Assembly (NCBI GenBank): GCA_023258975.1
Contig: JAHFRD010000003.1
Location: forward strand, 186,001-250,000
DNA length: 64,000 nt
DNA from: Hydrogenophilales bacterium
GTDB taxonomy: Bacteria > Pseudomonadota > Gammaproteobacteria > Burkholderiales > Thiobacillaceae
Direction: 5' to 3'
Under the pieces are notes generated by a model. That model ran no database searches. It saw nothing but the letters and a program-made list of their open reading frames with translations, and was not told the DNA's origin. This document shows positions 2,737 to 63,547 of this stretch, piece after piece. Each line of letters begins with the position of its first letter. The first letter of the stretch is position 1. The position numbers and the translations under genes were made by a program.

Positions 2737-3588
<852 letters not shown>

Positions 3589-3621
3589 CTGCTTGCTCCT
3601 GTAACTCGGTTCAGTCGAATT

Positions 3622-3648
3622 TTAGCACTCGCCCGAGTTGAGTGCTAA
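3622..3648 (-). promoter_or_regulatory. CIRCE operator (HrcA binding site) upstream of rpoH
   Basis: The sequence reads TTAGCACTC, nine bases, GAGTGCTAA, which is the full CIRCE consensus without mismatch; the symmetry extends two more bases on each side. It sits between ftsX and rpoH, 34 bp before the rpoH ATG. HrcA represses chaperone genes through this element. A plausible TTAGCA/TAAAAT promoter pair with 18-bp spacing is embedded in the operator on the minus strand, which would let HrcA block RNA polymerase directly; this last point is inference. Confidence 0.95.
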
Positions 3649-3683
3649 AAGCCAAAGGGAGTTCCCGAGTTATTTTATCGGGT

Positions 3684-9257: not shown

Positions 9258-9783
9258 CACGGTTCGCGTCATCGGCGGCAGCCACCGTGGCCGGGTACTG
9301 CGCTTTCCCGACGTGCCCGGCTTGCGGCCGACGCCGGATCGGGTGCGCGAAACCCTGTTCAACTGGCTCGGCCAGCGCCTCGGCGGCCTGGTCTGCCTGG
9401 ATGCCTTCGCCGGCAGCGGGGCTCTGGGCTTCGAAGCGGCTTCGCGCGGCGCCGCGCGCGTGGTGATGCTGGAACACGAACGCCAAGCTCACGAATCCCT
9501 GCTGGTGAACGCGCGGGCGCTGGCCCTGTCCGGTGTGGAAGTGCTGCGCCGCGAGGCGAAAAGCTTTTTGGCCAGTCCGGGCGAAGCCTACGACCTGATT
9601 TTCCTCGACCCCCCCTTCGCCGACGATTTGTTGCCACCCATCCTCGCGCTCGCGGCGACACGCCTGGCGCCTGACGGTAGAATCTACGCCGAATCGCCCA
9701 GGCCCCTGGCGCCTGTAGGCATGACCGTGTTGCGCCAGGGCCGCGCCGGACTGTCCCACTTCTGCTTGCTGGAGCCTGCTTGA
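9229..9783 (+). CDS. rsmD: 16S rRNA (guanine966-N2)-methyltransferase RsmD
   Basis: A 184-residue Rossmann-fold methyltransferase that modifies G966 of 16S rRNA. Landmarks are the N-terminal VRVIGGSHRGR, the LRPTPDRVRETLFNWL segment, the SAM-binding motif DAFAGSGALGFEA, and the catalytic DLIFLDPPF. The start is GTG at 9229, inside the previous gene; internal alternatives nearby cannot be excluded. It overlaps coaD by four bases. Confidence 0.93.
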   Translation: MGKLKARTSNTVRVIGGSHRGRVLRFPDVPGLRPTPDRVRETLFNWLGQRLGGLVCLDAFAGSGALGFEAASRGAARVVMLEHERQAHESLLVNARALALSGVEVLRREAKSFLASPGEAYDLIFLDPPFADDLLPPILALAATRLAPDGRIYAESPRPLAPVGMTVLRQGRAGLSHFCLLEPA

Positions 9784-10262
9784 ACCGTGTAATCGTCTAC
9801 CCCGGCACCTTCGACCCGGTCACCCGTGGGCACGAAGACCTGGTTCGGCGCGCGCTCAGGCTATGCGACGAAGTGGTGGTGGCGGTGGCGGACAACACGC
9901 CGAAGCACCCCTGTTTCAGCGTGGGCGAACGGGTCGAATTGCTGAACCTGGCCCTGGCTGGCCTGCCGGGAGTTCGGGTACAGCCGTTCAGCGGATTGCT
10001 GGTCGATTTCGTGCGGGGTGTCGGCGCAAGCCTGGTGTTGCGCGGACTGCGCGCGGTTTCGGATTTCGAATTCGAATTCCAGTTGGCGGGCATGAATCGC
10101 CGCCTGGACCCGGAGATGGAAACGGTTTTTTTGACGCCGGCGGAACAGCACATGTTCATTTCCGCCAGCATGGTGCGAGAGATTGCGCGGCTTCACGGCG
10201 ATGTGAAGCCGTTCGTGCATCCCGAGGTGGCCAAGCGACTGGCCGCCAGATTCAGTCATTGA
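9780..10262 (+). CDS. coaD: Phosphopantetheine adenylyltransferase CoaD
   Basis: A 160-residue nucleotidyltransferase that makes dephospho-CoA from 4'-phosphopantetheine and ATP. The nucleotide-binding motif YPGTFDPVTRGH is at residues 6-17 and the ISASMVREIA motif near residue 128. The start is TTG, overlapping the rsmD stop as TTGA, which fixes the start and implies translational coupling. Pairing with rsmD is common in proteobacteria. Confidence 0.95.
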   Translation: MNRVIVYPGTFDPVTRGHEDLVRRALRLCDEVVVAVADNTPKHPCFSVGERVELLNLALAGLPGVRVQPFSGLLVDFVRGVGASLVLRGLRAVSDFEFEFQLAGMNRRLDPEMETVFLTPAEQHMFISASMVREIARLHGDVKPFVHPEVAKRLAARFSH

Positions 10263-48753: not shown

Positions 48754-50517
48754 ATGACGGCTTCTCTCCCACAAATCCTGCACCAGCTGGGTGAATTGCT
48801 CGCACCACGGGATAAACTGGTTCTTGCCGCGCTGCTGCTGATGTCGGTTATTTTTGCCGGTGTCGAAACAGCCAGCATCTCCTTGGTCATGCCATTCATC
48901 TCGCTGGCCACGGATCCAGCAGCGGCGCTCGAACAAGCGAGCTATGCGAGGATCTACCACTTCCTCGGCTTCAATTCCACACACCGATTCGTGATCGCCG
49001 TAGGGGGCGTTCTGATCGTGTTCTACCTGCTGCGCGCGGCCTACACACTGGTCTATACCTATGCCCTGAACCGATTCACCTGGGACCGCTACCATGACTT
49101 GGCGACTCGACTGGTCTCCACCTACCTCGCGCTTCCCTATCGGGAATTCACCCAACAGAACTCCTCACAACTCGAAAAGAGCATCATCACCGAGGCGGCT
49201 TACTTGGCCCAGCTGATCGTATCCACCTTGCGCTTCATCGCCGAAGCAGCGGTCGCGGTGCTGCTCTACACCGTGCTGCTATTCGTCAATCTCCAGGTCA
49301 CACTGGTCGTCAGCATCCTACTGACCGTGAAGATCGGCGCCCTGACCTATCTCATCAAACGCATCACGACACGGCAGGGCGTGTTGCGTGAACAATACCA
49401 ATCCCGCTTCTACCATCTGCTCAACGATGCTTTCGGCAACTTCAAGCTGGTGAAACTTCTGTCCACTGAAAAACAGATTGTGCGGCAGGTATCCCAAGCG
49501 GCCTCCGGTTACTGCCGTTCCAACATCGTCAACACCACCGTCAGCCAACTCCCTCCGACCGTCCTGGAGACGGTGGGATTATCTTTGCTGGTGGGTATCG
49601 TGCTCTATACCCTGCTCACCAGCATGGATGGACACCAGATCATCCCTGTCATCTCCATGTACGCACTGGCCCTGTACCGGATGATGCCCGCAGCCCATCG
49701 CATGCTCTATTACTACAACAACATGCTGTATTACCGGCGTTCACTGGAAATCGTGCACAAGGAATTGACCAGATCACCCCCCGCCGACGGAGATGACCCA
49801 GTCCAATTCACCCGACAGGTGGCCCTGGAAAATGTCAGTTTTAATTATCCCGGGCGCGGGAGTGTGTTCGAGGGAGTGAGTCTGGCCATCCGCAAGAATG
49901 AAAAGATCGCCATCATCGGCCCCTCCGGCAGCGGCAAATCCACCCTGCTCGACCTACTGATCGGTATCCATACCCCGGATCAGGGCAAGGTGCTGGTAGA
50001 CGATGTCGCACTCACCGCCAGTAACGTCCGAGCTTGGCGCCGCGCAATCGGCTACATCCCGCAAAATATTTACCTGTTCGACGGCAGCGTGGCCGAGAAC
50101 GTGGCCTTCGGCAAAACCTACGATGAAGAGCGCATCAATCTGGCCCTGAAACAGGCCAGAATTTACGACTTCCTCCAGCTCCATGAAGGAATACATACCC
50201 AGGTGGGTGAAGGCGGCGTGAAATTTTCTGGGGGGCAAAAGCAGCGCATCGGCATCGCACGGGCCTTGTATGGCGACCCCGGGATACTCGTGCTGGATGA
50301 GGCCACCTCGGCCCTAGATCCTGAGACAGAGGCACAAATCATGTCGGAGATACATGATCTGGTACGGGATCGCACCTTGATCGTCGTCGCCCACCGAGCC
50401 TTATCCACGCAATATTTCGATCATATCTACCGGGTCGAGGGCGGGCAGCTTTGCACCGTCACGGAACCATCAACTGCGGAGTTCCGCGCAACCTCTCCCG
50501 CCGCTCACCTCGACTAG
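48754..50517 (+). CDS. ABC transporter, lipid-linked oligosaccharide flippase type (PglK/MsbA-like)
   Basis: A 587-residue half-transporter with six membrane helices (about residues 20-320) fused to an ATPase. Walker A GPSGSGKST, Q-loop GYIPQNIYLFDGS, signature FSGGQKQR, Walker B ILVLDEATSALD and the H-loop AHRAL. The arrangement and the YIPQNIYLFDGSVAENVAFG segment resemble PglK, which flips lipid-linked glycans. It sits between two radical-SAM genes. Confidence 0.9.
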   Translation: MTASLPQILHQLGELLAPRDKLVLAALLLMSVIFAGVETASISLVMPFISLATDPAAALEQASYARIYHFLGFNSTHRFVIAVGGVLIVFYLLRAAYTLVYTYALNRFTWDRYHDLATRLVSTYLALPYREFTQQNSSQLEKSIITEAAYLAQLIVSTLRFIAEAAVAVLLYTVLLFVNLQVTLVVSILLTVKIGALTYLIKRITTRQGVLREQYQSRFYHLLNDAFGNFKLVKLLSTEKQIVRQVSQAASGYCRSNIVNTTVSQLPPTVLETVGLSLLVGIVLYTLLTSMDGHQIIPVISMYALALYRMMPAAHRMLYYYNNMLYYRRSLEIVHKELTRSPPADGDDPVQFTRQVALENVSFNYPGRGSVFEGVSLAIRKNEKIAIIGPSGSGKSTLLDLLIGIHTPDQGKVLVDDVALTASNVRAWRRAIGYIPQNIYLFDGSVAENVAFGKTYDEERINLALKQARIYDFLQLHEGIHTQVGEGGVKFSGGQKQRIGIARALYGDPGILVLDEATSALDPETEAQIMSEIHDLVRDRTLIVVAHRALSTQYFDHIYRVEGGQLCTVTEPSTAEFRATSPAAHLD

Positions 50518-50558
50518 AGCAAGTTATCCATCTAGTAGCGCCAACCACGAGACATTTC

Positions 50559-52652
50559 ATGACAGACATGCCTATCTGGCTCTGCGATCTTACGTATACC
50601 CAACAGACGGTGGCTGCGGACACCATGCCCATGGCCATCGGCTGCATCGCCGAATACACAGAGAAACGGCTGCGCCTGGGCGCCCCCATCGAGTTGTTCA
50701 AGTACCCCGAAGACCTCATTAAGGCGCTGGAATCCGGCCCTCCGCCACAGATACTGGGCTTCAGCAACTACTGCTGGAACCTGAGCCTGGGCAGCGACAT
50801 GGCCCGAGCGGTCAAGGAAGCCGCCCCTCACACCGTCATCGTTTTCGGGGGGCCGAACTACCCCCTCCCGGACGAAGAACGGGTGACATTCCTGCGCGAA
50901 CACCCGGAAATCGACTTCTACCTCGCCGGCGAAGGCGAGGCCGCCTTCGCTGATCTGGTCGAGGCACTCAGAGCCCATCACTTCGATCCTGAATCGGTCA
51001 AACAACTGGCGCTGCCATCCATTCATTGCCTTGATGCGGATGGAAACGGTGTATTCCCGGCCAAACGGGACCGCCTGGTCGAACTGGATGAAATCCCCTC
51101 GCCCTACACCAGCGGCCGCCTGGACAAGTTTTTCGACGGCAAATTGATGCCCCTGCTCCAGACCAACCGAGGCTGCCCCTTCAGTTGCACCTTCTGCGTG
51201 GAAGGGGATAGCTATTACTCCAAGATTCGCAAGTACTCCACTGAACGAATCCATGCCGACGTGGAATACATCGGAAGGCACATGCACGCCATCCGTAGCG
51301 ACCGTTCCCGTAATGACCTGTTCATCGCCGACTCCAACTTCGGCATGTACGCGGGCGACATCGACACCTGCCATGCCTTGCGAAAAACACGGGAAGATTA
51401 TCAATGGCCCGAATACATCAATGTCGCAACCGGCAAGAACAGCAAGGAACGCGTCATTGAGGCGGCGGAACTCCTAGACGGCGCCTTGCGCCTGTCGGGC
51501 TCCGTGCAGAGTCTGGATGCCACTGTACTGACCAACATCCGCCGCAAGAACATTTCCGTCGAGCAACTGGTCGAGCTTGGCCTCCACGCCAACAGAATCG
51601 GGGTCAACTCCTATAGCGAGATCATTCTGGGTCTGCCCGGCGATAGCAAAATCGCGCACTACGACACCATTCGCCAAGTCATCGATGCAGGTTTCAATTT
51701 CGTTCTGCCCTGGCAATTGATGCTGATAAACGGCTCGGAACTCGCCACGCAAAGCCACAAGCAGTTGTACCAGATGGATGTCCGCTATCGAATTCTGCCC
51801 CGCTGTTTCGGCAGCTACCCTCTTTTTGGCAAGACCATCAACAGCGCCGAGATCGAAGAGATCTGCGTGGCCAATGCCACCCTACCGTTCGAGGATTACC
51901 TGGAATGCCGGCGCCTGAACCTGTTCGTCGCCATTTTCTACAACGACAGCATTTTCTCAGGCCTGTTGAAGCTGTTTCGCCTGCTCGACATCTCCATCTT
52001 CGACTGGATACTCGCGGTCATGGAAAGCAGTCGTTTGACCAGCCTGGATGCCGTGGTCACGGAATTCCTCCACGCAACCCGGGACGAACTATGGTCGTCG
52101 CGCGCCGAACTGGAGGCATTCTGTCGCGACACCGAGGCCATCCAGCGCTACGTACGGGGAGAACTGGGGCGCAATAATCTGTATTACTTCCGCACCCTTG
52201 CGATCACCCAGCAGATCGATTCATTAAAGGATCTGGCCTTGCATGCGGCCCTGCCCATGCTGAGGGATACCGGTCATGATAACGCCGAATTGCGGCGCTT
52301 CGTGGAGGAATTGCTGGAATACCACGCACTGCGCATCCGTGATGTATTCACAGAGCCGGATCGTGCCCTGACCGGAGAATTCAATTACGACCTGCTCCGA
52401 TTCGACAAGGATAGTAGTGTCACCTCCTACACCAGTGTGCGCGCCGACAACCCGCGCACATATCGTTTCACCCTGGACGATGGCCAACGTGACCTGATCC
52501 GGCGCAATCTGATCGTGCATGGCAGCGACTCGGTGGGTATCGCCCGCATTCTCTCGCGGGTGTTTGTGAAGAAACTCTACCGTCAGGTTGATGAGACCGG
52601 AGAAATCGACTCATATCCCCCATCTCTTTCCTCCCCGCACGAGCTGGCATAA
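50559..52652 (+). CDS. B12-binding-domain radical SAM protein
   Basis: A 697-residue protein. An N-terminal B12-binding-like Rossmann domain (about 1-150; ILGFSNYCWNLS, VFGGPNYP) lacks the DxHxxG motif. Then comes a radical-SAM core with CPFSCTFC near residue 208 and a barrel through about 450. A long C-terminal region (450-697) of unknown fold follows. Such enzymes often methylate unreactive carbons or rearrange sugars and lipids. The ATG at 50559 is chosen because it begins the conserved domain; an in-frame extension overlaps the ABC gene. It converges with the deacetylase gene, six bases away. Confidence 0.87.
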   Translation: MTDMPIWLCDLTYTQQTVAADTMPMAIGCIAEYTEKRLRLGAPIELFKYPEDLIKALESGPPPQILGFSNYCWNLSLGSDMARAVKEAAPHTVIVFGGPNYPLPDEERVTFLREHPEIDFYLAGEGEAAFADLVEALRAHHFDPESVKQLALPSIHCLDADGNGVFPAKRDRLVELDEIPSPYTSGRLDKFFDGKLMPLLQTNRGCPFSCTFCVEGDSYYSKIRKYSTERIHADVEYIGRHMHAIRSDRSRNDLFIADSNFGMYAGDIDTCHALRKTREDYQWPEYINVATGKNSKERVIEAAELLDGALRLSGSVQSLDATVLTNIRRKNISVEQLVELGLHANRIGVNSYSEIILGLPGDSKIAHYDTIRQVIDAGFNFVLPWQLMLINGSELATQSHKQLYQMDVRYRILPRCFGSYPLFGKTINSAEIEEICVANATLPFEDYLECRRLNLFVAIFYNDSIFSGLLKLFRLLDISIFDWILAVMESSRLTSLDAVVTEFLHATRDELWSSRAELEAFCRDTEAIQRYVRGELGRNNLYYFRTLAITQQIDSLKDLALHAALPMLRDTGHDNAELRRFVEELLEYHALRIRDVFTEPDRALTGEFNYDLLRFDKDSSVTSYTSVRADNPRTYRFTLDDGQRDLIRRNLIVHGSDSVGIARILSRVFVKKLYRQVDETGEIDSYPPSLSSPHELA

Positions 52653-52658
52653 CGACAA

Positions 52659-53627
52659 TTATTGCCCCGCAACCCTCGGATGAATCCCTCCATCATCAAC
52701 AAGCCGACAAGAACCAAAAGGAAACACATTACAGTCGAAGCGCGGCAATGCCTGTCGTCTATTCTCCAGATCGTTTTTTTCTATATCTCTTGGTTCCACA
52801 TTGAATGAGAATAAACAGGAGTACCTCTCAAGCAGACGCTCCGTCTGAGCAGTGAATGAATGAAAACCGCCGTAAGGATAGCAGAACGTCCTCGGGGAAT
52901 TTACTCCTGTGATTGACTCAATCATCTCAAACGAAGATGCAATTTCTTTCTCCTGATCTTCCACCATCAATTTACTCATGACCGGGTGATTTACCGTATG
53001 ACTGCCCAGCAGCATTCCATGCTGGGCCATATAGGAAATCTCTGTTTTTGTCATATAGAAATCCTGCGCCATACCCCTCTCGTCCGGATAGAATGTAGAC
53101 ATTAGTCTATCGATAACAAGCCGCCTGTACTTGTAGTCAATAAAATAATTTAGCACCCTCTTAACATAGTTTGTAGTTGCGCCGTTATTCTGCCTCCTGT
53201 AGGTTTCGACTTGAAACTCTTCAATGAGCGCATGCGATAACATGTCGTTGTCAATAATCTCATCTATTGCATCGGCAATCGCATCACCACCATGCGCCCC
53301 TATAAGAAGATGTACACGATGAACGTCGATTAGTGTTCCGGTGACAAACGGAGATGTTGGTATATAAAAAATCCCCCATAAGCCACGTCTCAACAACTCG
53401 GGAAATACATAACGATAGTGATCCTTGAAACCATCATCAAAGGTCAAGACCACACCATTTACTGGTTTGGCCGATGATATTGACTCCATAAATTCCTCCT
53501 TGGTAACAAATCCAAGTTCGGCCTTAAAGTAGTCAAGTTGCATCGCAAAATCATCTATGTGCAGATGGCGGAAATATGGAAGCCCTGGATCATCTGGCCT
53601 AACGTAGTGATACATGATCGCCTTCAT
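52659..53627 (-). CDS. Polysaccharide deacetylase-family protein
   Basis: A 322-residue NodB-type protein. The motif-1 segment VVLTFDDGFKDHY and motif-2 SHTVNHPVMSKL (the metal-binding SHxxxHP pattern) are present, and the substrate-groove motif is CYPYGGFHSF. No signal peptide is seen, so it should act in the cytoplasm on a precursor sugar. Its start overlaps the formyltransferase stop as ATGA. The gene is markedly AT-rich compared with its neighbours. Confidence 0.88.
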   Translation of the reverse strand: MKAIMYHYVRPDDPGLPYFRHLHIDDFAMQLDYFKAELGFVTKEEFMESISSAKPVNGVVLTFDDGFKDHYRYVFPELLRRGLWGIFYIPTSPFVTGTLIDVHRVHLLIGAHGGDAIADAIDEIIDNDMLSHALIEEFQVETYRRQNNGATTNYVKRVLNYFIDYKYRRLVIDRLMSTFYPDERGMAQDFYMTKTEISYMAQHGMLLGSHTVNHPVMSKLMVEDQEKEIASSFEMIESITGVNSPRTFCYPYGGFHSFTAQTERLLERYSCLFSFNVEPRDIEKNDLENRRQALPRFDCNVFPFGSCRLVDDGGIHPRVAGQ

Positions 53628-54454
53628 CGCTGCCCCATCTCCAGAGCGGGATTGCTGCATATCGGAACCTTCTCGCACCTACTCGCCTCTTCGTTCAAAT
53701 AGGTATCGATGAGGCCGGCCTCGAAGTTTCTATAGAGAGCAGCCACGGATTCCTCGGTGTAGTCTTTCCTCTTGTACACCCTCTCGTGAACTGGTCTAGG
53801 CAGGGGCGGCATTCTCTCAAGATTATCAAAGTTAATAATGATACTTCTGCACAACCGGCTCATTTCGACGATGAGGCGATTTCCAATCTGAGACGGCGTA
53901 TCTCCCCATGAATAGTTGGCGCGAACCTGATGAATTATTTCCCCGGTATCTATTCCAGAATCAATATACATGAAAGTCGCGCCCACATATTCTGGCTCGC
54001 CATTCACCAGCGGCCAATAGTTCGTTCCACTGCCCCGATAGTAAGGAGACAGCCCCAAGTGCACATTGAGGAAACGCCCTCGAAAGGCACTAAGCAGTGG
54101 CTCCCTGATGATTGAACAGCCATAGGCGATCAATAAATCCGGGTTAGAATCAATAATAGTCTGTGCATATGCCCGATTGTTGACTTCCCCCTTAGGCAAA
54201 AAAACAGGATGCGAATTATCGGCAGTATTATCAACAAAAAGCCCGAAAAAATCATTTTCAGACCGCTCTCTAGCCAAAAGATGCTTTGACCTCACATCAT
54301 TGGCTAGCCCATTTTTCGCAACAAAATTACCAAGGCTTTTTTCCAATCCTTCACAGTACGAATTAATAACATGAACTCCATTGGATAAGGCCGTGTACTT
54401 GCGAAAGAACACATGCCGCAACTCCGATCCGGTCAAGATGACGATTCTTTTCAA
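53624..54454 (-). CDS. Formyltransferase-like protein (sugar N-formyltransferase candidate)
   Basis: A 276-residue protein of the formyltransferase fold. It contains LIAYGCSIIREPLL, NVHLGLSPYYRGSGTN (the Asn-His catalytic pair) and YIDSGIDTGEIIHQ. The length and context fit a sugar 4-amino N-formyltransferase using formyl-tetrahydrofolate rather than Fmt. It is AT-rich like the coupled deacetylase; both were probably acquired together. The target is most likely the amino sugar made by the WbpM-type route, which is inference. Confidence 0.85.
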   Translation of the reverse strand: MKRIVILTGSELRHVFFRKYTALSNGVHVINSYCEGLEKSLGNFVAKNGLANDVRSKHLLARERSENDFFGLFVDNTADNSHPVFLPKGEVNNRAYAQTIIDSNPDLLIAYGCSIIREPLLSAFRGRFLNVHLGLSPYYRGSGTNYWPLVNGEPEYVGATFMYIDSGIDTGEIIHQVRANYSWGDTPSQIGNRLIVEMSRLCRSIIINFDNLERMPPLPRPVHERVYKRKDYTEESVAALYRNFEAGLIDTYLNEEASRCEKVPICSNPALEMGQR

Positions 54455-54489
54455 AATAAACTCCTTGACAGTTATAGGAAATGGGACAT

Positions 54490-55305
54490 TCAGATATCCT
54501 CCGTATCCAAGCTTGACAGGGTTGGCACTGAGAGTCGTCTGCGCTGTACAGCAAAATCCTGTTGTGTCCGGGAATGAAGCAATGCACGAGCAAAGGGAAA
54601 TGCCAACACACCTCCTCGCGAAGAAAGCAGTCGAAACAAGAAAGGGGGGACGGCCTTCTTGGTAAATAGATGAAGATCACCTCCGTGGACATAGCGCATC
54701 CCCAGGCTATCGGCCAGATAGGAAAGAGTCCTGCGCTGATAAAAACAAATGTGCTGACCACTTTCAAAAGCGTAGTAATACCAGTTCCGGGGCGGCGCAT
54801 CTCCCTCAAACAGGGTGGTGCTGAACAGCAGGCTGTCGCATCCGGTTTCCGCGATGACCGAGGCCACGAAATCCCGCGGCGATGGCACGTGTTCCAGTAC
54901 CTCAAAGGCCGTGACCAGAGCGTACTCCTGCCCCGGTTCACACTCGAATCCTTTGGCCAGCAGATTGGCGCAGTACTTGTCCTGCCAATGGAAATCAAGG
55001 CCGATATCCCGCATCAGGCGCGTAAATACCCCATATCCGCCCGCGAAATCGAGATAGCGGGCGGCGCGAGGGAAGAGAAAGGAGAGAATGCCGGTTACGC
55101 GCAGGGCATTGAGCAGGTTGCGCCGCATCACCCCGGTGTCGATCTGGGCGATGGGGTGCCGGTATGCCTCATCCAGCCAGTCAGGCTGATGGGCGAACAG
55201 CAAGCCACAGTGCTGACACAGGCAATAGTTTGCCTCCCGGTCGCCAAGCACATTGGCGGAAAAGACCGTTCCGGCCTCGTTAGCGCACAGCGGGCAAACA
55301 GACAT
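54490..55305 (-). CDS. SAM-dependent methyltransferase with N-terminal zinc ribbon
   Basis: A 271-residue protein. It has two CxxC pairs (CPLC near residue 4, then CLCQHC near 29-34) of the zinc-ribbon type seen in sugar C-methyltransferases. The Rossmann SAM-binding motif DFAGGYGVFTRLM is near residue 87, and VTAFEVLEHVPSPRDF is the methyltransferase motif. It is convergent in context with the deacetylase pair, but its GC content is nearer the host's. The substrate is unknown. Confidence 0.85.
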   Translation of the reverse strand: MSVCPLCANEAGTVFSANVLGDREANYCLCQHCGLLFAHQPDWLDEAYRHPIAQIDTGVMRRNLLNALRVTGILSFLFPRAARYLDFAGGYGVFTRLMRDIGLDFHWQDKYCANLLAKGFECEPGQEYALVTAFEVLEHVPSPRDFVASVIAETGCDSLLFSTTLFEGDAPPRNWYYYAFESGQHICFYQRRTLSYLADSLGMRYVHGGDLHLFTKKAVPPFLFRLLSSRGGVLAFPFARALLHSRTQQDFAVQRRRLSVPTLSSLDTEDI

Positions 55306-55411
55306 CCCATCCTCGATTCAAACGATTCATTACATTGACCCTATCAGGGGGGAAAGGCGAAAATCGGCAGTCAACCGAATGATTCCAATTGGGCAGGACC
55401 GGCTTCCAGGC

Positions 55412-56839
55412 ATGAAAACCATCGCATTTCTTCCGCTGACCCGAACCAACTGGCCCGTCATGGTCAGGTTGGTCACCGCAGTCAGGGACAGCGGGCAAGG
55501 CCGCCCAGTCATCATTCTATCCAACCCGCTGATGAAGGAACTGTCCCGCGACTTGGGTGGTGACATCGAATTGCTGGAAACGGCCGAGGGGTTTGCCCCC
55601 ATCCAGCCACCGCAGGCCACACAGGGGGTGTGGCCGACCAACGTCGTCGAAAGCGGCTTGCGCGCGGGATTTCAGATCATCCGCCGTAGCCGTGCCCTCG
55701 CCCCTCTCCTGTCCTGGCACAAGGGCCGGACAATGGAAAAGCAGCTGCGCATGGCGAAGGATTTGCTGCGCAAGCTAAAACCCGCCGCCATCGCCGTCTC
55801 CGGTGACCGTAACGGCGGATTTGAACCAGCCTTTCTGCGTACCGCGCGCAACCTGGGCATTCCTGCTGTCATTCCGCCAACGGCTTTCTCCGCCACACTG
55901 GATGGACTGTCCATCGCCCGGCGACAGAATTCGGCCCATTTCGTGACGCATCGGCCGGACTTCAAGCGCCAATTCCCCAATCAGTGGCGGCACGACCCCC
56001 TATCCGGAGAAGACCTCAGCTTCTTTGGCGTGGCCACGACCCGTGCCTACGCCAACCACGACATGCTGCCGGAAAACCCCTGGGTGCTAGGCGGCGGACT
56101 CAGCGACTGGATCCTGGTGGACAGCACGGACGTGATGCGACGTTATACCGATCTGGGCGTCACCCCCGACAAGATCCTGGTCACGGGGCACCCGGACCAT
56201 GACGCACTCTTCCTTGCACAGCGGCAGAAAAACGAGACACGCGCGCGTCTTTACGCCAAATACCAGCTCGACCCGGCAAAAAAACTGATCCTGCTCTGCC
56301 TGCCCAACTGGGCCGAGGTTGGCTTCAAAGACTGGGCATGGCATTGGCGAGAAAGCGAGCTTCTATGCCGCAATGCAGTCAACCACGGCGGCAATGTCCT
56401 GCTCTCTCTGCACCCCACCCAGGAACGTGCCCGCTACATCCACCTGGAAAAGCGTTTCCCACCCCTGCGCATCCTCGATGAGCGTCTCGCCACGGTCATG
56501 CCCGTGGCGGACATCTATTTCACCGGGCTGTCTTCCTCCACCATCCCCTGGGCGGTACTGTCTTTGGTCCCCACGGTGATCGCCGACCACTATCCCGAGA
56601 AGGATCGCATCCATGCCGGGCTGCCGGGTGTCCTCTATGTTCCCCAAACCGACCAATTGCACGATGTTCTCGCCCGCCTGGTCGGCGACGACACCTATTT
56701 CCAGGCATTGAAACAACATCAACAGGAATCCTCGCAGCGTTATGGCGCCCTCGATGGACACGCCACCGACCGTATCGTCCAAGCGCTGCTCACATCCCGG
56801 ATCAGGGATGGCGGAGAAAGGCTTGCCCATGCCGCGTAA
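55412..56839 (+). CDS. GT-B fold protein of glycan synthesis, unclassified
   Basis: A 475-residue protein without a signal peptide. It begins MKTIAFLPLTRTNWPVMVRL and has an N-terminal alpha/beta half, then a second half with ILVTGHPDHDALF, LLSLHPTQERARYI and DIYFTGLSSSTIPWA, resembling the nucleotide-binding half of CDP-glycerol glycerophosphotransferases and UDP-GlcNAc 2-epimerases. It overlaps the neuC start by 11 bases. A glycosyl- or phosphotransferase role is likely; the exact family is not recognised. Confidence 0.75.
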   Translation: MKTIAFLPLTRTNWPVMVRLVTAVRDSGQGRPVIILSNPLMKELSRDLGGDIELLETAEGFAPIQPPQATQGVWPTNVVESGLRAGFQIIRRSRALAPLLSWHKGRTMEKQLRMAKDLLRKLKPAAIAVSGDRNGGFEPAFLRTARNLGIPAVIPPTAFSATLDGLSIARRQNSAHFVTHRPDFKRQFPNQWRHDPLSGEDLSFFGVATTRAYANHDMLPENPWVLGGGLSDWILVDSTDVMRRYTDLGVTPDKILVTGHPDHDALFLAQRQKNETRARLYAKYQLDPAKKLILLCLPNWAEVGFKDWAWHWRESELLCRNAVNHGGNVLLSLHPTQERARYIHLEKRFPPLRILDERLATVMPVADIYFTGLSSSTIPWAVLSLVPTVIADHYPEKDRIHAGLPGVLYVPQTDQLHDVLARLVGDDTYFQALKQHQQESSQRYGALDGHATDRIVQALLTSRIRDGGERLAHAA

Positions 56840-57974
56840 GGTCATGGTACTGACCGGCAAGCGCGGCGGATTCGGCGCCATGAAGCCGATGCTGCGCCTG
56901 TTGCGCGACGACCCCACCTTCGAGTTGCAACTGGTGGTCACCGACCAACACCTGAACCCGCGTTTCGGCCGCACCATCACCGAGGTCGAACAGGAATTCC
57001 CGATCGCCGCCGCAGTCGATATGGAACAGCGCGATGGCTCGGCCGCAGGTCGGGCGCGCGCGCTTGGTGTGTGCGCAACGCGAATGGCCGAGGCCCTCGA
57101 TGCGTTGAAACCCGACCTGTGCCTGCTCTACGGCGACCGGGGCGAAGTCCTGGCCAGCGCCATGGCCGCCACCGCATTGGGCATCCCGATCGGCCATATG
57201 CAGGGCGGCGACGTGTCCGGCTCAGTGGATGAACAGGTGCGCCATGCTGTCACCAAACTGGCCCACCTCCACTTTCCATCCACCCAGGAAAGCGCGCAGC
57301 GCATCCTGAGGATGGGTGAGGAGCCCTGGCGCGTACAAGTGACGGGCGACCATCACCTCGACCTGATCGTGGCGGGGGAATACGCCACCCAGGCCGAGGT
57401 TGCCGAGACCGCCGGCATCGACCCCAACCAGCCCGTGATCGTGCTGTTGCAACACTCTGAAACCACCGCCCCGGACGCGGCCTACCAGCAGATGGCCGAG
57501 ACTCTCATCGCGGTTCGCGCCACGGGCATGCAAACGGTGGTGGTCTATCCTTGCTCCGACGTGGGCTACGAAGGGATCGTGCGGGCCATCGAGGAATTCG
57601 CCACCGGCTCGCAATTCCGCGTATTCAGGAACCTCGACGCCCCCGTGTTCTGGGGGCTTCTGGCCCTCGCCACCGTCATGGTGGGCAACAGCTCCGCAGG
57701 CATCATCGAAACCCCCTGCTTCCGTCTGCCCGCCATCAACATCGGCCGCCGCCAGGAAAACCGGCTGCATGCGGAAAACGTGATTCATGTTGGTCACGAG
57801 CGCGCCGCCATCGCGGCCGCCCTCGACCGCGCCCTCAACGATGCGCCCTTCCGCGCGTCCGCGCGCAATTGCGCGCAAGTCTATGGCGACGGCAAAGCGG
57901 GCTGGCGCACGGTGGAGGCCATCCGCGACCTCCCCCTGGACAGCCGCCTGTTCGTCAAACGCATGACCTACTGA
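56829..57974 (+). CDS. neuC: Hydrolysing UDP-N-acetyl sugar 2-epimerase (NeuC/LegG type)
   Basis: A 381-residue GT-B-fold epimerase. TGKRGGFGAMKPML, QLVVTDQHLNPRFG, GDRGEVLASAMAA, HMQGGDVSGSVDEQVRHA, VTGDHHLDL and MVGNSSAGIIETP match NeuC-type enzymes, which release ManNAc (or a dideoxy analogue) from the UDP sugar. It is the first step of the nonulosonate block; neuA and neuB follow. The start overlaps the upstream gene. Confidence 0.9.
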   Translation: MPRKVMVLTGKRGGFGAMKPMLRLLRDDPTFELQLVVTDQHLNPRFGRTITEVEQEFPIAAAVDMEQRDGSAAGRARALGVCATRMAEALDALKPDLCLLYGDRGEVLASAMAATALGIPIGHMQGGDVSGSVDEQVRHAVTKLAHLHFPSTQESAQRILRMGEEPWRVQVTGDHHLDLIVAGEYATQAEVAETAGIDPNQPVIVLLQHSETTAPDAAYQQMAETLIAVRATGMQTVVVYPCSDVGYEGIVRAIEEFATGSQFRVFRNLDAPVFWGLLALATVMVGNSSAGIIETPCFRLPAINIGRRQENRLHAENVIHVGHERAAIAAALDRALNDAPFRASARNCAQVYGDGKAGWRTVEAIRDLPLDSRLFVKRMTY

Positions 57975-57975
57975 G

Positions 57976-58728
57976 ATGCCGCTGACCGCCCCGACCCCCG
58001 CCTTGCGTTCCTGGGCCTTCGTGCCCGCGCGCGGTGGCTCCAAGGCCATTCCGCTGAAGAATCTGGCCGACCTGGGCGGACGGCCGCTAATGGATTACTG
58101 CATCGAGGCCGCCAAGGCCAGCGGCGTCTTCGAACGCATCATCTGCTCCACCGAGCATGCCGGCATCGCGGATCAAGCCCGTGCCCTCGGCATCGAGCAC
58201 GACCTGCGGCCCCTGTACCTGTGCGGCGACGAGGTGTCCACCCGCGCGGTGATCGTGGAGTTCCTGGAACGCCACCGGCACGACCTGCCCGACCTGCTGT
58301 TCATCGTCGAGCCGACCAGCCCCTTTCTGCGTCCCCAGGACATCACGGCGCTGGCCGAAGCCATGCGGCACAACCCCGCCGCCGTGACCGGCCAGACCGT
58401 CTCCCGGCCGCCGCATACACACCACGCATGGAACCAGCGCGAGATGCGCGACGGCCAGGTGCGCTTCATCTTCGAAGAACGCAAGAAGGTCTTCGCCAAG
58501 CAGAACAAGCCCGTGCTCTATGTGTTCGGCAATCTCATCGCCTGCCGCGCGGCCGAACTGCTCGCCGGCGGCGACGTGTTCGCGGAACCTTCGGCGGGGG
58601 TGGAGATCGAGTGGCCCTACGACGTCAACATCGACTATCCCAATGACCTCATCCTTGCCAATGCACTGCTTGCAGCCGGGCTGGTGAGTCTGCCCCACAC
58701 CCACCGGAACGACGCACTTGCAAGCTGA
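57976..58728 (+). CDS. neuA: CMP-nonulosonate cytidylyltransferase (NeuA/LegF/PseF type)
   Basis: A 250-residue nucleotidyltransferase. The N-terminal motif FVPARGGSKAIPLKNL is diagnostic of acylneuraminate cytidylyltransferases. Further landmarks are CSTEHAGIAD, EPTSPFLRPQD and the C-terminal IEWPYDVNIDYPNDL. It activates the sugar as CMP derivative for transfer. It begins one base after the neuC stop. Confidence 0.92.
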   Translation: MPLTAPTPALRSWAFVPARGGSKAIPLKNLADLGGRPLMDYCIEAAKASGVFERIICSTEHAGIADQARALGIEHDLRPLYLCGDEVSTRAVIVEFLERHRHDLPDLLFIVEPTSPFLRPQDITALAEAMRHNPAAVTGQTVSRPPHTHHAWNQREMRDGQVRFIFEERKKVFAKQNKPVLYVFGNLIACRAAELLAGGDVFAEPSAGVEIEWPYDVNIDYPNDLILANALLAAGLVSLPHTHRNDALAS

Positions 58729-58827: not shown

Positions 58828-59982
58828 ATGCGTATCCTGATTCTCGGCGGTGACGGCTATCTGGGCTGGCCGACCGCCATGTACCTTTCCAATCGCGGAC
58901 ACGAAGTCGCGGTCGTGGACAACATGGTCAAACGCTTTTGGGAAGCCGAGATCGGCGTACAACCGCTCATCGCCGTGCGGCCATTCCACCTGCGCGCCAA
59001 GCGCTGGGAGGTGCTCACCGGCAAGCGCATCCAGTTCTATACCTGCGACATCGCCAGCAACCACCGGCACATCTACAACATCTTCGAGCAATTCCAGCCG
59101 GACACCGTCATCCATTACGCGGAACAACCCTCGGCACCGTTCTCCATGATCGACCGCGAAAAGTGCGTCACCACCCAGCACAACAACGTGGTGGGCACTC
59201 TCAACATCATCTTCGCCATCCAGCACACCAATCCCGATATCCACCTCATCAAGCTCGGCACGATGGGCGAGTACGGCACCCCGAATATCGACATCGAGGA
59301 AGGCTGGCTGGATCTGGAACACAACGGCCGCAAGGATCGCGTGCTCTATCCCAAAAAGGCTCATTCCTTCTATCACCTGTCCAAGGTGCACGATTCCGCC
59401 AACCTGGAATTCGTGTCCCGGGTGTGGGGCAGTCGCGTCACCGACCTCAACCAGGGCTGCGTCTACGGTATCGACACGGACGAGACCGCCATGCACCCGG
59501 AACTGAACACCAGCTTCCACTACGACGCCGTATTCGGCACGGTCATCAACCGCTTCGTCATTCAGGCCAGCCGCAATCTGCCCCTCACCGTGTATGGTGG
59601 CGGCACCCAGACCCGGGGCTATCTCAACATCCGCGACACCCTGCGCTGCGTCGAACTGGCCACCCTCAACCCCGCCGAACGGGGCGAATTCCGCGTATTC
59701 AACCAGTTCACCGAACAGTTCGACCTCAACACGCTGGCCGAGAATGTGCGCGGCGCCGCCGCCGGCCTCGGCCTGCCGGCCAGCATCGACCACATCGCCA
59801 ACCCGCGCATCGAGCAGGAAGAGCACTACTACAACGCCAAGCATTCGGCGCTGCTCCAGTTGGGCCTGGAGCCCCGCCTGCTAACCCAGGACGTGCTCGC
59901 CGGCATGCTGGAAACCGCCCTTCGCCACAAGGACAACGTAGACGAAGACAAGATCATGCCCAACGTGAAATGGAAGAGCTGA
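58828..59982 (+). CDS. UDP-sulfoquinovose synthase-like epimerase (SQD1/SqdB type)
   Basis: A 384-residue extended SDR. The NAD motif GGDGYLGWPTAMYL is at residues 7-20. The active site reads T145 (LGTMGEYGTPN), Y182, H183 and K186 (SFYHLSK), the same numbering and residues as plant SQD1. YAEQPSAPFSMID and QGCVYGIDTDET are family signatures. The reaction is UDP-glucose plus sulfite to UDP-sulfoquinovose. It lies inside the nonulosonate block, between neuA and neuB, with a one-base overlap to neuB. No sqdX/sqdD-type transferase is adjacent, so the product more likely goes into a glycan than a sulfolipid; this is inference. Confidence 0.88.
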   Translation: MRILILGGDGYLGWPTAMYLSNRGHEVAVVDNMVKRFWEAEIGVQPLIAVRPFHLRAKRWEVLTGKRIQFYTCDIASNHRHIYNIFEQFQPDTVIHYAEQPSAPFSMIDREKCVTTQHNNVVGTLNIIFAIQHTNPDIHLIKLGTMGEYGTPNIDIEEGWLDLEHNGRKDRVLYPKKAHSFYHLSKVHDSANLEFVSRVWGSRVTDLNQGCVYGIDTDETAMHPELNTSFHYDAVFGTVINRFVIQASRNLPLTVYGGGTQTRGYLNIRDTLRCVELATLNPAERGEFRVFNQFTEQFDLNTLAENVRGAAAGLGLPASIDHIANPRIEQEEHYYNAKHSALLQLGLEPRLLTQDVLAGMLETALRHKDNVDEDKIMPNVKWKS

Positions 59983-61007
59983 TGGGTTCTCCCGCAAGTT
60001 TCAGCATCGCCGGCCGCGAAATCGGCCCGGACGCCCCTTGCCTGGTCATCGCCGAAGCGGGCGTCAACCATTTCGGCAGCATGGAGAAGGCCTTCCGCCT
60101 GGTGGACATGGCCGTGGAAGCCGGCGCGGATGTCCTGAAGATCCAGCACTTCCACACGGATCGCCTGATCGGCAACTCGGCGGCCGACTGGCGCGACCGC
60201 ATGCGCTCCAAGGAACTCTCCGAAGCCGACGTGCGGCGCATCAAGGAATATTGCGACCAGCGCGGCATCCTGTTCCTGTGCACCCCCCACGACGACTGGG
60301 CCTTGCGCTTCCTGAACGAGGACATCGGTCTGCCCGCCTTCAAGATCGGCTCCGGCGAGGTGGAGAACTGGCCCTTCCTGGCCCAGGTCGCCCGCTGCGG
60401 CAAGCCGGTCATCCTGTCCACCGGCATGTACCGCATGGAGCAGATCCGCGAGGCCATCCAGGTGCTGGCCGAAAATGGCTGCCCCGCCCTGTCCATCCTG
60501 CATTGCGTGACCAGCTACCCGGCGCCGCCCGAGTCCATTAACCTCAAGGTCATGGACGATATCCGCGCCTTCTTCCCCGGTCCGGTAGGCTATTCCGACC
60601 ACACCGCCGGCACGGCCGTGCCGCTGGCGGCGGTGGCACGCGGCGCGAACGTGCTGGAGAAGCACATCACCCTGGATCGCGACGTTCCCAACGCCCAGGA
60701 CTGGAAGGTGTCCTGCGACCCCTCGAATTTCGCCACCTTCGTTGCCCAGGTGCGGGAAATCGAGGCGGCCCTGGGCAACACCGACAAGAACATCGGCGAG
60801 ATGGAGCAGAACGCTTTGCTGTGGGCGCGCAAAAGCCTGCACGCGGCCAATGCCATCCCTGCCGGCTACGCTATCGACGCGGCCATGCTCGTGGCCCAGC
60901 GCCCCGGCAAGGGCATCTCGCCAGCCCACCTTGCCAGTCTGATCGGACGCACCGTCAAGATGGACATTCCCGCTGGCACCATGATCGACTGGGACATGAT
61001 CGGTTAA
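59982..61007 (+). CDS. neuB: Nonulosonate synthase (NeuB/LegI type)
   Basis: A 341-residue enzyme. It has an N-terminal TIM barrel (VIAEAGVNHFGSMEKAF, FKIGSGEVENWPFL, ILSTGMYRMEQI, ILHCVTSYPAPPE, VGYSDHTAGTAVPLAA, LEKHITLDRD) and a C-terminal SAF antifreeze-like domain (about 285-341). It condenses phosphoenolpyruvate with ManNAc or a dideoxy analogue. GGAAGAG stands five bases before the ATG at 59982, which overlaps the preceding stop; ATG 59970 is a longer alternative. The specific product (Neu5Ac, legionaminic or other) is not decided by sequence alone. Confidence 0.92.
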   Translation: MGSPASFSIAGREIGPDAPCLVIAEAGVNHFGSMEKAFRLVDMAVEAGADVLKIQHFHTDRLIGNSAADWRDRMRSKELSEADVRRIKEYCDQRGILFLCTPHDDWALRFLNEDIGLPAFKIGSGEVENWPFLAQVARCGKPVILSTGMYRMEQIREAIQVLAENGCPALSILHCVTSYPAPPESINLKVMDDIRAFFPGPVGYSDHTAGTAVPLAAVARGANVLEKHITLDRDVPNAQDWKVSCDPSNFATFVAQVREIEAALGNTDKNIGEMEQNALLWARKSLHAANAIPAGYAIDAAMLVAQRPGKGISPAHLASLIGRTVKMDIPAGTMIDWDMIG

Positions 61008-61010
61008 GCC

Positions 61011-61949
61011 ATGATCACCTGGGACATCGACGCCAGCATTCTCCATTCCCCCGCTATCACCAACCGCAACCTCTTCGCGGATACGATCGCCTCCCGGCCC
61101 GCGGAGGAAATCATCACCCAGTACGCCGGCCTGACGCCACTGCAAATCGAACAGGAATTCGGGGAGATCTTCGCGATTGTGCGCGATCTCGGCATCCAAC
61201 TGCGCGGCACCGGGCTGGAACTGGGTGCTGGCCTGGGTGTGCTATCGGCCATGTCGGTGAACTGCTGGCCGGAGATCGAACAGCTTTACGCCCTGGAAGT
61301 TGTGCCCAGGATTATCGAGTTGCTGCAACCCAAAACCGTGCGGTACATCGCCCCGGCCGGGGCGGACAAGATTCTCGGCGTGCTCGGCTCGTTCGATGAC
61401 ATGCGTGTGCCGGATGGGCATTTCGACTTCTGCATCGAATACGCCTCGCTGCACCATAGCGACGACCTGCCGCGCACCCTGCGAGAGACCGCGCGCGTAC
61501 TCAAGCCGGGCGCCCCCCTGGTCGCCATTGACCGCGCCCATTACGACGGCGTATCGAGCGAGCAACTCCAGTTCATGCTCGACGTTCACTACTCTGCGAC
61601 GTGGAAACGTCGCTATGGCTATTCCGACGCCCCATTGAGCCGCGCCCAGAACGGCGAGCATGAGATACGCATGAAGGAATGGCTGGCCGCGTTCGACAGC
61701 ACGGGTTTCGAGGTCGTTCGCCGCATCGAGCTGCGCCCCACCGGCTGGCGCGCGCTGCGCTACAAGACCGCCCTGATGCTGCCCTTCACCATGCGCCGTG
61801 CCCTCGGCCTCCATCCCTCGCGGGTTCGGCCCGCCCTCGCCGAACTGGCTTGGCTGGCGGCGGGACTGCTGGGCCTGTCGCCTAGCTCCAACACCTATCT
61901 GCCAGCCGCCAAGGAGCACACCCTGTTCATCACCCGGAAGCGGCCATGA
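61011..61949 (+). CDS. SAM-dependent methyltransferase
   Basis: A 312-residue class I methyltransferase. SAM motif GLELGAGLGVLSAM near residue 70, the acidic loop YALEVVPRI, and the post-motif FDFCIEYASLHHSDDL with a RVLKPGAPLVAIDRAHY strand. A hydrophobic stretch near residues 270-290 is notable. It overlaps the next gene as ATGA. It probably methylates the nonulosonate or another residue in the glycan. Confidence 0.82.
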   Translation: MITWDIDASILHSPAITNRNLFADTIASRPAEEIITQYAGLTPLQIEQEFGEIFAIVRDLGIQLRGTGLELGAGLGVLSAMSVNCWPEIEQLYALEVVPRIIELLQPKTVRYIAPAGADKILGVLGSFDDMRVPDGHFDFCIEYASLHHSDDLPRTLRETARVLKPGAPLVAIDRAHYDGVSSEQLQFMLDVHYSATWKRRYGYSDAPLSRAQNGEHEIRMKEWLAAFDSTGFEVVRRIELRPTGWRALRYKTALMLPFTMRRALGLHPSRVRPALAELAWLAAGLLGLSPSSNTYLPAAKEHTLFITRKRP

Positions 61950-63547
61950 GCAGACTCATGATCCTGCCGGCCTTCGGCGTCTGGCCGATGCTGGAATATG
62001 AACTGGACATCGTCGAGCGGCGGCTCGCCGAGGGCGACGAGGTGGTCTGGCTGATGTGCGAGGGCAACGCACCATTCTGTCCGGCCAACCTGGCCCTCAA
62101 GAAACGGGTCTGCCTGGAATGCCGCTCCCGCACCCGCGCCGGACTCGACTGGTTGAGCCACCACGAGAACCTCACCGTGGGCAGACTCTACAACCTGGAA
62201 CCGACCCAGCGCACCGAAAGCGAGGACTGGGCCGGCCAGGCCATCCTCGGCCCCGAACCCACGGCACTCGGTTTGCCCCCGGAACTGGCCGCCACCGACT
62301 GGTATGAGTCGGCCTATTCCACCCTCCAGACCACCTATAAGGAATTCCGTCCCGACCTGTCCGTGCGCGAGCCGATGCTGCGGCGCATGATCCTCGACTT
62401 CTTCCAGTCCCACCTGGCATTCCGCAACAACCTTGCTTGTCACAATCCAGACGAGGTGTGGCTGTTCAACGGTCGCATCACCCGCTTCCGCCCCGCGCTG
62501 CGTGTCTGTCAACGTGAATCACGGCGGGTATTCGCTTATGAATACCCGTACCAGGGCTTCAAACGTTACGTCGTGTTCGAGGGGCAGTATCCACACGACT
62601 TCGGCTTCCGCTCGCGCACCTGGAAGCAGCGTTTCGACGCCAACCCGCTGCCGCTGAAACGGAAGCTGGCCATCGGCGACACTTGGTACCGCAAGCGGCT
62701 GTCGCGCATCCAGACCAACTACGAGAAGGTGTTTTCCGCCTGGCAGACCGAGGGATTGTTGCCACCGGACTGGAACCGGGAACGCTACAACGTGGCGGTA
62801 TTCAACAGTTCGGAATGGGAATCTGCGGGCGTGCCGGAATCCCGGCGCTGGAACTACGAGGACCAGTATTCGGCGCTGGAGCGCATCCTGCAGGACACCC
62901 GGCATCTGCCCCACCTGCATTTCACCTTCCGCATCCATCCGCATATGGCCAAGAAGGACAGGGAAAGCGCCGAGCGCTTCCTGACCCTGGCGCGCTTTCC
63001 CAACGTCACCGTCCTGCCGCCGGAATCGAAATACGACACCTATGCCCTGGTCATGGCCAGCGACGTGGTGCTGACCTTCTATTCCCTGGTCGGCGTGGAA
63101 ACCGCCTGGCTCGGCCGGCAGGCCATCTGCCTCGGCCCGACGCCCTACCAGGATTTCGGCTGCGTCTATCTGCCGCGTAGCCACGAGGAACTGCTGGACA
63201 CCCTGGCCCATCCAGAACAGACCGCCAATCGCTTCCCGAGCATCGAGGCGCGCAAGCGTGGCGCCCAGGAATTCGCCTTCGCGCGCCTGTTCTCCGGCAC
63301 CAAGTCGCGCCACGTGGTCAAGCGCCACTACGCCCGGGCACTCATGCGGCGGGGCGGGGTAACCAGCGCGATCAAGGCGGCCTTTGCCATCCGCGCCCTG
63401 AACCGGGCGCTGTCGCTGCCGGCCTATGTCGTCGAGGCCATCCAGCGCATCAGCAAGGACGAATTCCTGCGCAAGGAAATCGCCCAGGCGCCTAGCCGGG
63501 CTGTGCTGCGCTTCATCCGCGACCGACTGATGGGCACCGTGCCCTGA
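61946..63547 (+). CDS. Glycan-cluster protein of capsule-synthesis type, 533 aa
   Basis: A soluble 533-residue protein. It opens MSRLMILPAFGVWPMLEYEL and carries AWQTEGLLPPDWNRERYNVAVFNSSEWE-like text in the middle (shown only in part: VAVFNSSEWESAG) and HFTFRIHPHMAKKDRESAERFL, SKYDTYALVMASDVVLTFYSLVGVETAWL in its last third, which resemble the C-terminal half of GT-B capsule transferases. The family is not recognised. Overlap with the methyltransferase gene and convergence with the last gene place it at the end of the operon. Confidence 0.7.
   Translation: MSRLMILPAFGVWPMLEYELDIVERRLAEGDEVVWLMCEGNAPFCPANLALKKRVCLECRSRTRAGLDWLSHHENLTVGRLYNLEPTQRTESEDWAGQAILGPEPTALGLPPELAATDWYESAYSTLQTTYKEFRPDLSVREPMLRRMILDFFQSHLAFRNNLACHNPDEVWLFNGRITRFRPALRVCQRESRRVFAYEYPYQGFKRYVVFEGQYPHDFGFRSRTWKQRFDANPLPLKRKLAIGDTWYRKRLSRIQTNYEKVFSAWQTEGLLPPDWNRERYNVAVFNSSEWESAGVPESRRWNYEDQYSALERILQDTRHLPHLHFTFRIHPHMAKKDRESAERFLTLARFPNVTVLPPESKYDTYALVMASDVVLTFYSLVGVETAWLGRQAICLGPTPYQDFGCVYLPRSHEELLDTLAHPEQTANRFPSIEARKRGAQEFAFARLFSGTKSRHVVKRHYARALMRRGGVTSAIKAAFAIRALNRALSLPAYVVEAIQRISKDEFLRKEIAQAPSRAVLRFIRDRLMGTVP

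Follow-up and report, generated by a model that had tools for sequence, protein, structure and literature searches.

Gene content of the locus

The window, a 64,000-nucleotide stretch of one contig from a 3.63-Mb Hydrogenophilales genome (37 contigs), carries an operon in which genes for a NeuC-like enzyme, a CMP-sugar cytidylyltransferase (CMT), an SQD1-type nucleotide-sugar enzyme and a NeuB-type synthase follow one another on the same strand (Table 1). The ORF coordinates and the family matches bore out the preliminary description, which had placed the SQD1-type gene between a neuA-type cytidylyltransferase gene and neuB with a one-base overlap with the latter; the stop codon of the SQD1-type gene and the ATG of neuB share one base. 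The SQD1-type gene is a complete ORF of 384 amino acids, and the possibility of a pseudogene was ruled out, as its frame is intact and its sites are conserved.

Table 1. Features of the operon and of the surrounding glycan cluster, in coordinates of the window.
Feature	Position	Strand	Evidence
PglK-like ABC flippase of surrounding glycan cluster	48754..50517	+	NF050066 543 bits, below cut-off 1000
Product of the gene preceding neuC, possibly of GT-B fold (start uncertain)	55409..56839	+	Weak Pfam Epimerase_2 and Glyphos_transf, both below gathering score
NeuC-like hydrolysing UDP-GlcNAc 2-epimerase	56829..57974 (start uncertain within ORF 56742-57974)	+	TIGR03568
CMP-sugar cytidylyltransferase (CMT; NeuA/PseF-like)	57976..58728	+	PF02348 E 1e-19; TIGR03584 (PseF model) 89.5 bits, below cut-off
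SQD1-type nucleotide-sugar enzyme with Pro101; proposed UDP-GlcNAc 6-sulfonate synthase	58828..59982	+	NF041015, phmmer, Foldseek
NeuB-type nonulosonate synthase, SQD1-linked subtype	59982..61007	+	PF03102 E 1e-72, tree, residues
SAM methyltransferase, possible decoration enzyme	61011..61949	+	PF08241 E 1e-10; retained in Gallionellaceae MAG L002
Candidate glycosyltransferase, possible nonulosonate transferase (guess)	61946..63547	+	NF046086 BFO_1060 family E 3e-8, 33 bits vs cut-off 200

The operon resembles the CMP-Neu5Ac pathway in that all three of its enzyme families (NeuC, NeuB and NeuA) are present, and differs from it in the addition of a UDP-sugar enzyme and in a NeuB whose sugar end is remodelled. 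The NeuC-like protein scored over the cut-off of TIGR03568 (362.5 vs 235.9 bits), and NeuB, in which both the NeuB and the SAF domains (PF03102 and PF08666) are present, scored below that of TIGR03569 (337.2 vs 399.65 bits). No Pfam match at E 0.01 was obtained for the candidate glycosyltransferase.

The nearest named relative among the matches listed is a Gallionellaceae MAG (L002), which has the same operon and an SQD1-type protein 95% identical to that of the window. Genes similar to that of the PglK-like flippase directly precede neuB at four other loci (L004, L006, L009 and L017). A gene for a B12-binding radical SAM protein (50451-52652) recurs near the operon in L002, L006 and L017, and genes for a polysaccharide deacetylase, a formyltransferase and a methyltransferase occupy the opposite strand (52659-55305) between the flippase part of the cluster and the neu part. 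Outside the window, about 12 kb downstream of the operon neuB, lies a third, shorter NeuB-family gene of this genome (C5:259165-259977).

Used as a query, the SQD1-type gene gave one match in its own genome at E 1e-10, and at E 1e-40 it was found in 2 of 61 genomes (the own genome and 60 relatives), namely the own genome and one of 22 others of the genus. Because of this distribution, the gene was probably gained by transfer.

Proline at position 101 of the SQD1-type enzyme

The SQD1-type protein matched the NCBIfam model for UDP-sulfoquinovose synthase (NF041015) over its full length (E 2e-132) and Arabidopsis SQD1 (1qrr) in a phmmer search (E 3e-151), and its predicted structure (mean pLDDT 89), which was used for fold search only, matched SQD1 in Foldseek with a TM of 0.95 and 56% identity. 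T145, Y182, H183 and K186 have the same numbers as in plant SQD1, with Y182-x3-K186 present, and H96, M146, E148 and Y149 are also retained. In fold, length, the four numbered residues and the TMGEY motif, the protein is therefore like the UDP-sulfoquinovose synthases SQD1/SqdB and Agl3. It is unlike them in that Arg101 (motif EQ-R-SAP in SQD1) is replaced by proline, in that its score is below the curated NF041015 cut-off (441.6 vs 575 bits, the window protein having been scored without a known SQD1 or SqdB as reference), in that no SqdX-like partner was found, and in its position in a nonulosonate operon. Thus the preliminary description, which had called the gene an intact UDP-sulfoquinovose synthase with all active-site residues at the plant positions, was right about the intact ORF, the homology and the four numbered residues, but not about all active-site residues, since Arg101 is lost.

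Alanine mutants of Agl3 at His95, Arg101, Met145, Tyr182 and Lys186 are reported to be inactive, while T144A retained activity (PMC4388408). Since Arg101 is essential in Agl3, its loss could mean that the SQD1 reaction has been lost rather than that a new substrate has been acquired, which argues against a sulfonate pathway. Position 101 was proline in all 15 neu-linked homologues compared and arginine in 52 of 53 other homologues. R36K, D40E, R229S and D231H were among further positions that fully separated the same 15 from the 53, although not all Pro101 proteins found later follow this separation. TMGEY and H183 were invariant across the compared sets, with the exception of one leucine for methionine. 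In an alignment with four GalE/RmlB-type proteins, position 101 falls on the wall of the sugar pocket, after their H-x-[AG] motif. This motif alone was used to equate it with Lys85 of Bifidobacterium GalE, which contacts O2 and O3 through its main chain and is counted among three residues that determine specificity (PMC6668579); in GalE-type enzymes the sugar-pocket wall is reported to help set the use of Glc or GlcNAc (PMC6668579; PMC12820599).

Over all loci fetched, 127 distinct SQD1 homologues were compared, of which 57 have proline and 67 arginine at position 101, one has cysteine, one has serine and one does not cover the position. NeuB or NeuC was encoded on the fetched flanking DNA, which for some Pro101 and Arg101 loci extended only 0.2-1.5 kb on one or both sides, for 30 of the 57 Pro101 proteins and for none of the 67 Arg101 proteins; neither the cysteine nor the serine homologue was linked, and the homologue without coverage of position 101 was neu-linked. 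A single Pro/Arg change at this position was indicated by a 107-row tree (41 Pro, 64 Arg, 1 Cys, 1 Ser), which like the other trees was computed in quick mode with SH-aLRT as the only support and with column 101 kept in; all 20 rows marked as neu-linked sit on the Pro branch (SH-aLRT 90). Pro101 being one evolutionary event, 30/57 against 0/67 is no set of independent trials. A Fisher test without the viral loci and the Cys and Ser homologues (24/51 vs 0/65, p 5e-11) was likewise not taken as proof, the sequences being related by descent.

A search of other genomes for sqdB inside neu operons had been suggested in the preliminary description, and the combination does recur in several phyla. 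Among the matches listed, neu-linked loci carry the names Gallionellaceae, Rhodobacterales, Rhodospirillales, Thalassospira, Prochlorococcus, Sulfuritalea, Syntrophaceae, Parcubacteria and Kaiserbacteria, many of them MAGs, and Thalassospira lohafexi (L006) is one of the carriers of the operon; the 80 named loci are the best 80 of at least 585 relatives and therefore lean to the type of the window. Chance was rejected as an explanation of the gene order, which is seen again in loci bearing the names of several phyla and on viral contigs. The plasmid records searched gave 22 matches, the best at 53% and none at 60% or more, and the phage records gave no match at E 1e-40.

An SQD1 homologue was found on ten viral contigs, whose viral status is that given by the collection; PHROGs was searched with proteins from L245 (eight) and L250 (two, without a match). 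On seven of them (L242-L245 and L249-L251) the SQD1 gene is surrounded by CMT, NeuC and/or NeuB genes, with NeuC in L245, L249 and L250; another contig with Pro101 (L248) has a NeuB of another type 6 kb away, and the two Arg101 contigs had no neu genes on the fetched DNA. A NeuB match was present in six of the seven cassettes; five of these NeuBs are short, with about 230-260 amino acids up to the stop codon, and that of L249 is truncated at the end of the contig. The phage-type genes of L245 include those for a ribonucleotide reductase, which the cassette adjoins, an exonuclease, a Sak4-like annealing protein, an SSB and a ParB/methyltransferase, and its cassette contains an extra 2-hydroxyacid-dehydrogenase-like gene.

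NeuB and NeuC subtypes linked to SQD1

A NeuB tree was built from 47 proteins, matches shorter than 240 amino acids, such as that of L005, which the contig end truncates, being left out. In it, 15 of 16 SQD1-linked proteins fell in one clade (SH-aLRT 98), which stands apart from the NeuBs of relatives, including same-genus ones that score over the NeuB cut-off. The exception was L046, in which a Pro101 SQD1 lies beside a NeuB of another type (R82 but F112, no deletion). Genome samples of the class and of the phylum, which overlap in part, were searched with the window NeuB. In the class sample (274 genomes), a match at E 1e-40 was obtained in 55, and the best three outside the own genome (392, 327 and 282 bits) were all in SQD1 operons, the fourth scoring 227 bits. 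The phylum sample (398 genomes) gave 21 genomes with a match at E 1e-60; here the best three outside the own genome (364, 355 and 311 bits) lay within 2 kb of SQD1, and the next reached 238 bits. All six of these top matches are at most about 3 kb away from SQD1.

The linked NeuBs also share distinctive residues. In Neisseria meningitidis numbering, W79, R82 and H112 together with the absence of 8-9 residues of 67-75 were found in 18 of 19 distinct cellular SQD1-linked NeuBs of at least 240 amino acids (the partial match of L214 lying outside the comparison); in the remaining one, L046, R82 alone is present. Among 76 other NeuBs, which were fetched by family or similarity search rather than as a census, include L046 and L248, and were in part labelled PseI-like by us, W79 occurred in none, R82 in three, H112 in none and the deletion in three. 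In the window NeuB, these three residues are W70, R73 and H103, and the deletion of 67-75 is present. Six short NeuBs encoded beside SQD1 on viral contigs share H112 and the deletion, but theirs extends over positions 79 and 82 as well, and the new arginine (82) is therefore not universal.

NeuB positions 70-85 have been tied to C4-C6 specificity (PMC7371886), and Phe112, Asn74 and Phe288 are reported to line the ligand site (PMC6795526). The canonical C4-C6 loop is missing from the window NeuB, in which Phe112 is replaced by histidine, Phe288 by tryptophan and Asn184 by threonine and Asn74 falls in the deletion; E25, Q55, T110, K129, Y186, S213, H215, E234 and R314 are retained. The two new basic residues at the sugar end would be compatible with an acidic C6 substituent; alignment and literature are the basis on which residues are placed near a sulfonate or acetamido group.

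In a 42-row tree, the linked NeuCs formed two clades, one of them with the window NeuC and neither of them with a NeuC from an unlinked locus; the second NeuCs of genomes G182 and G224 fell outside both. As the linked NeuCs are of two types, their products may differ. Comparison of NeuC residues gave suggestive changes only and was not used as evidence.

A proposed pathway to a sulfonated nonulosonic acid

From the gene content, the recurrent linkage, the branch-specific residues and the NeuB and NeuC subtypes observed, we infer a substrate, its sulfonation, each chemical step and a final sugar, and we favor, with moderate confidence, the interpretation that the products of neuC-CMT-SQD1-neuB act in a common pathway that makes one C9-sulfonated nonulosonic acid. 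The Pro101 SQD1-type enzyme would oxidise UDP-GlcNAc at C4, eliminate water between C5 and C6, add sulfite at C6 and re-reduce C4, yielding UDP-N-acetyl-6-sulfo-quinovosamine. NeuC would release UDP with 2-epimerisation to give 6-deoxy-6-sulfo-ManNAc, NeuB would use this sugar and PEP to form 9-deoxy-9-sulfo-Neu5Ac, and the cytidylyltransferase would convert the latter to its CMP form, to be used by a transferase, perhaps the product of 61946-63547. We put the SQD1 step ahead of that of NeuC, since the substrates of SQD1 enzymes are UDP-sugars and NeuC takes the UDP away.

The main rival is that ordinary UDP-sulfoquinovose and a separate sialic acid are made and enter one glycan. The preliminary description had suggested such a glycan; the association of SQD1 with nonulosonate genes on which it drew was confirmed, but two separate sugars are the less likely reading, one sulfonated nonulosonic acid being a better fit. 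The catalytic core of the SQD1-type enzyme is intact and several glycosyltransferase-like genes lie around the operon, as this alternative would have it. Against it, Arg101 is lost and the Pro101 enzymes form a branch separate from the copies beside SqdX-like genes, NeuB and NeuC are of dedicated subtypes that are not expected with ordinary sialic acid, the sugar end of NeuB is remodelled, and the same compact cassette occurs on viral contigs.

SqdX-like genes, a label given by place beside cyanobacterial SQD1 and not by family search, were also compared. Such a gene (at least 40% identity, a threshold which together with short flanks may miss some) was present on the fetched DNA of 11 of the 67 Arg101 copies and none of the 57 Pro101 copies, and sulfolipid synthesis is for this reason an unlikely role for the window copy. 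With an SqdX-like protein as query, the best match in the own genome was 32% identical and on another contig, and the only match in the window was a partial one of 28% to a GT4 gene at 46612, in agreement with the earlier remark that no sulfolipid transferase is nearby. Two Prochlorococcus genomes (G710 and G711) each have two SQD1 homologues, an Arg101 copy adjoining a gene 67% and 62% identical, respectively, to the SqdX-like gene of L080, and a Pro101 copy inside neuC-CMT-SQD1-neuB, which is therefore not needed for sulfolipid; this, too, speaks against two separate sugars.

In legionaminic and pseudaminic acid pathways, a nucleotide-sugar SDR acts before a hydrolase and a NeuB-type synthase. 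The window operon would be similar, with such an SDR acting before a hydrolase and a NeuB-type synthase, but the SDR is of SQD1 type and a PseC-family search found no aminotransferase of this family in the window. The search gave three matches in the genome at E 1e-20, all outside the window, and the best of these (530 bits, over the cut-off) lies on contig C22, 6 kb from another NeuB-family gene; a pseudaminic pathway of this genome is likely to be encoded there.

The same order of SDR, hydrolase and NeuB-type synthase is described for the Pen/Pal case, in which Pen is a UDP-GlcNAc 5,6-dehydratase serving pseudaminic acid synthesis, and SQD1-type enzymes are reported to act as 5,6-dehydratases when sulfite is absent (PMC8987622). 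Given this precedent and the loss of Arg101, the window enzyme might alternatively be a sulfite-free UDP-GlcNAc 5,6- or 4,6-dehydratase, like Pen or PseB, that feeds a deoxy nonulosonic acid. This appears distinctly unlikely, as the PseC-family matches are all outside the window, TMGEY and H183 are conserved as described above, and most linked NeuBs have gained basic residues that point to an anionic group.

No NeuB or NeuC was found on the fetched flanking DNA of 27 of the 57 Pro101 proteins. A homologue (at least 40%) of a protein of L142 was encoded on the fetched DNA of 12 of these 27, and others are in exopolysaccharide-like clusters, and Pro101 is therefore not specific to nonulosonates. 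The L142 protein scored 270 bits to PseB and 237 bits to FnlA, which are models of UDP-GlcNAc dehydratases, both scores being below cut-off. Loci with a Pro101 SQD1 and a PseB/FnlA-like SDR but no NeuB or NeuC on the fetched DNA (L141-L148, L209, L212, L215 and L216) perhaps represent a second context, in which sulfonated amino sugars are used directly. Four neu-linked loci (L140, L208, L210 and L214) also carry the L142-type gene. Judged from gene neighborhoods, the amino-sugar company of many Pro101 enzymes would agree with UDP-GlcNAc as the substrate. In L008, L013 and L034 (partly in L011 and L021), the Pro101-branch SQD1 is located in an apparent synthase-dependent exopolysaccharide cluster, the labels of which (GT2, HlyD-like, outer-membrane-factor-like) were given by reading of the sequences.

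The occurrence of Pro101 enzymes among polysaccharide genes raises the alternative that sulfonated UDP-GlcNAc is used directly as a hexosamine in the window organism also, with NeuB and NeuC making an unrelated nonulosonic acid; this is very improbable in view of the recurrent gene order and of the NeuB subtype found with SQD1. Beyond the pathway to a C9-sulfonated nonulosonic acid favored for the window, we propose more tentatively, at somewhat less than even chances, that Pro101 SQD1-type enzymes as a whole form a branch of the family with a second substrate and act as UDP-GlcNAc 6-sulfonate synthases, which feed a new class of C9-sulfonated nonulosonic acids in several phyla and on phage genomes and elsewhere provide sulfonated amino sugars used directly in polysaccharides. 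If the pathway proposed for the window holds, the sialic-acid family would gain a sulfonated member and the SQD1 family a second substrate, and there would be a source of organosulfonates outside sulfolipid, also on phages. Pro101 in SQD1 and H112, usually with R82, in NeuB would then be sequence marks allowing the pathway to be searched for in other genomes.

Taurine is said to be the source of the sulfonate in the flagellin glycan of Clostridium difficile type B. The sulfonated peptidylamido-glycans described for this flagellin are comparable in placing a sulfonate in a bacterial surface glycan, and differ in that the modification is described as a peptidylamido one (PMC5207245). No description of an SQD1-neu operon or of a sulfonated sialic acid was found in the one open-licence library searched; subscription journals were mostly outside the search, and novelty is provisional.

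Two further features of related operons were observed. A Syntrophaceae MAG (L018) has two Pro101 SQD1 homologues in one nonulosonate operon, at 3402-4550 and 8856-10004, which are 59% and 43% identical to that of the window, respectively. A phosphoglycerate-dehydrogenase-like gene, so labelled by family search for L140 and L245 and by similarity for the other loci, recurs in the operon in L018, L027, L029, L139, L140 and L245, and is perhaps involved in acyl decoration.
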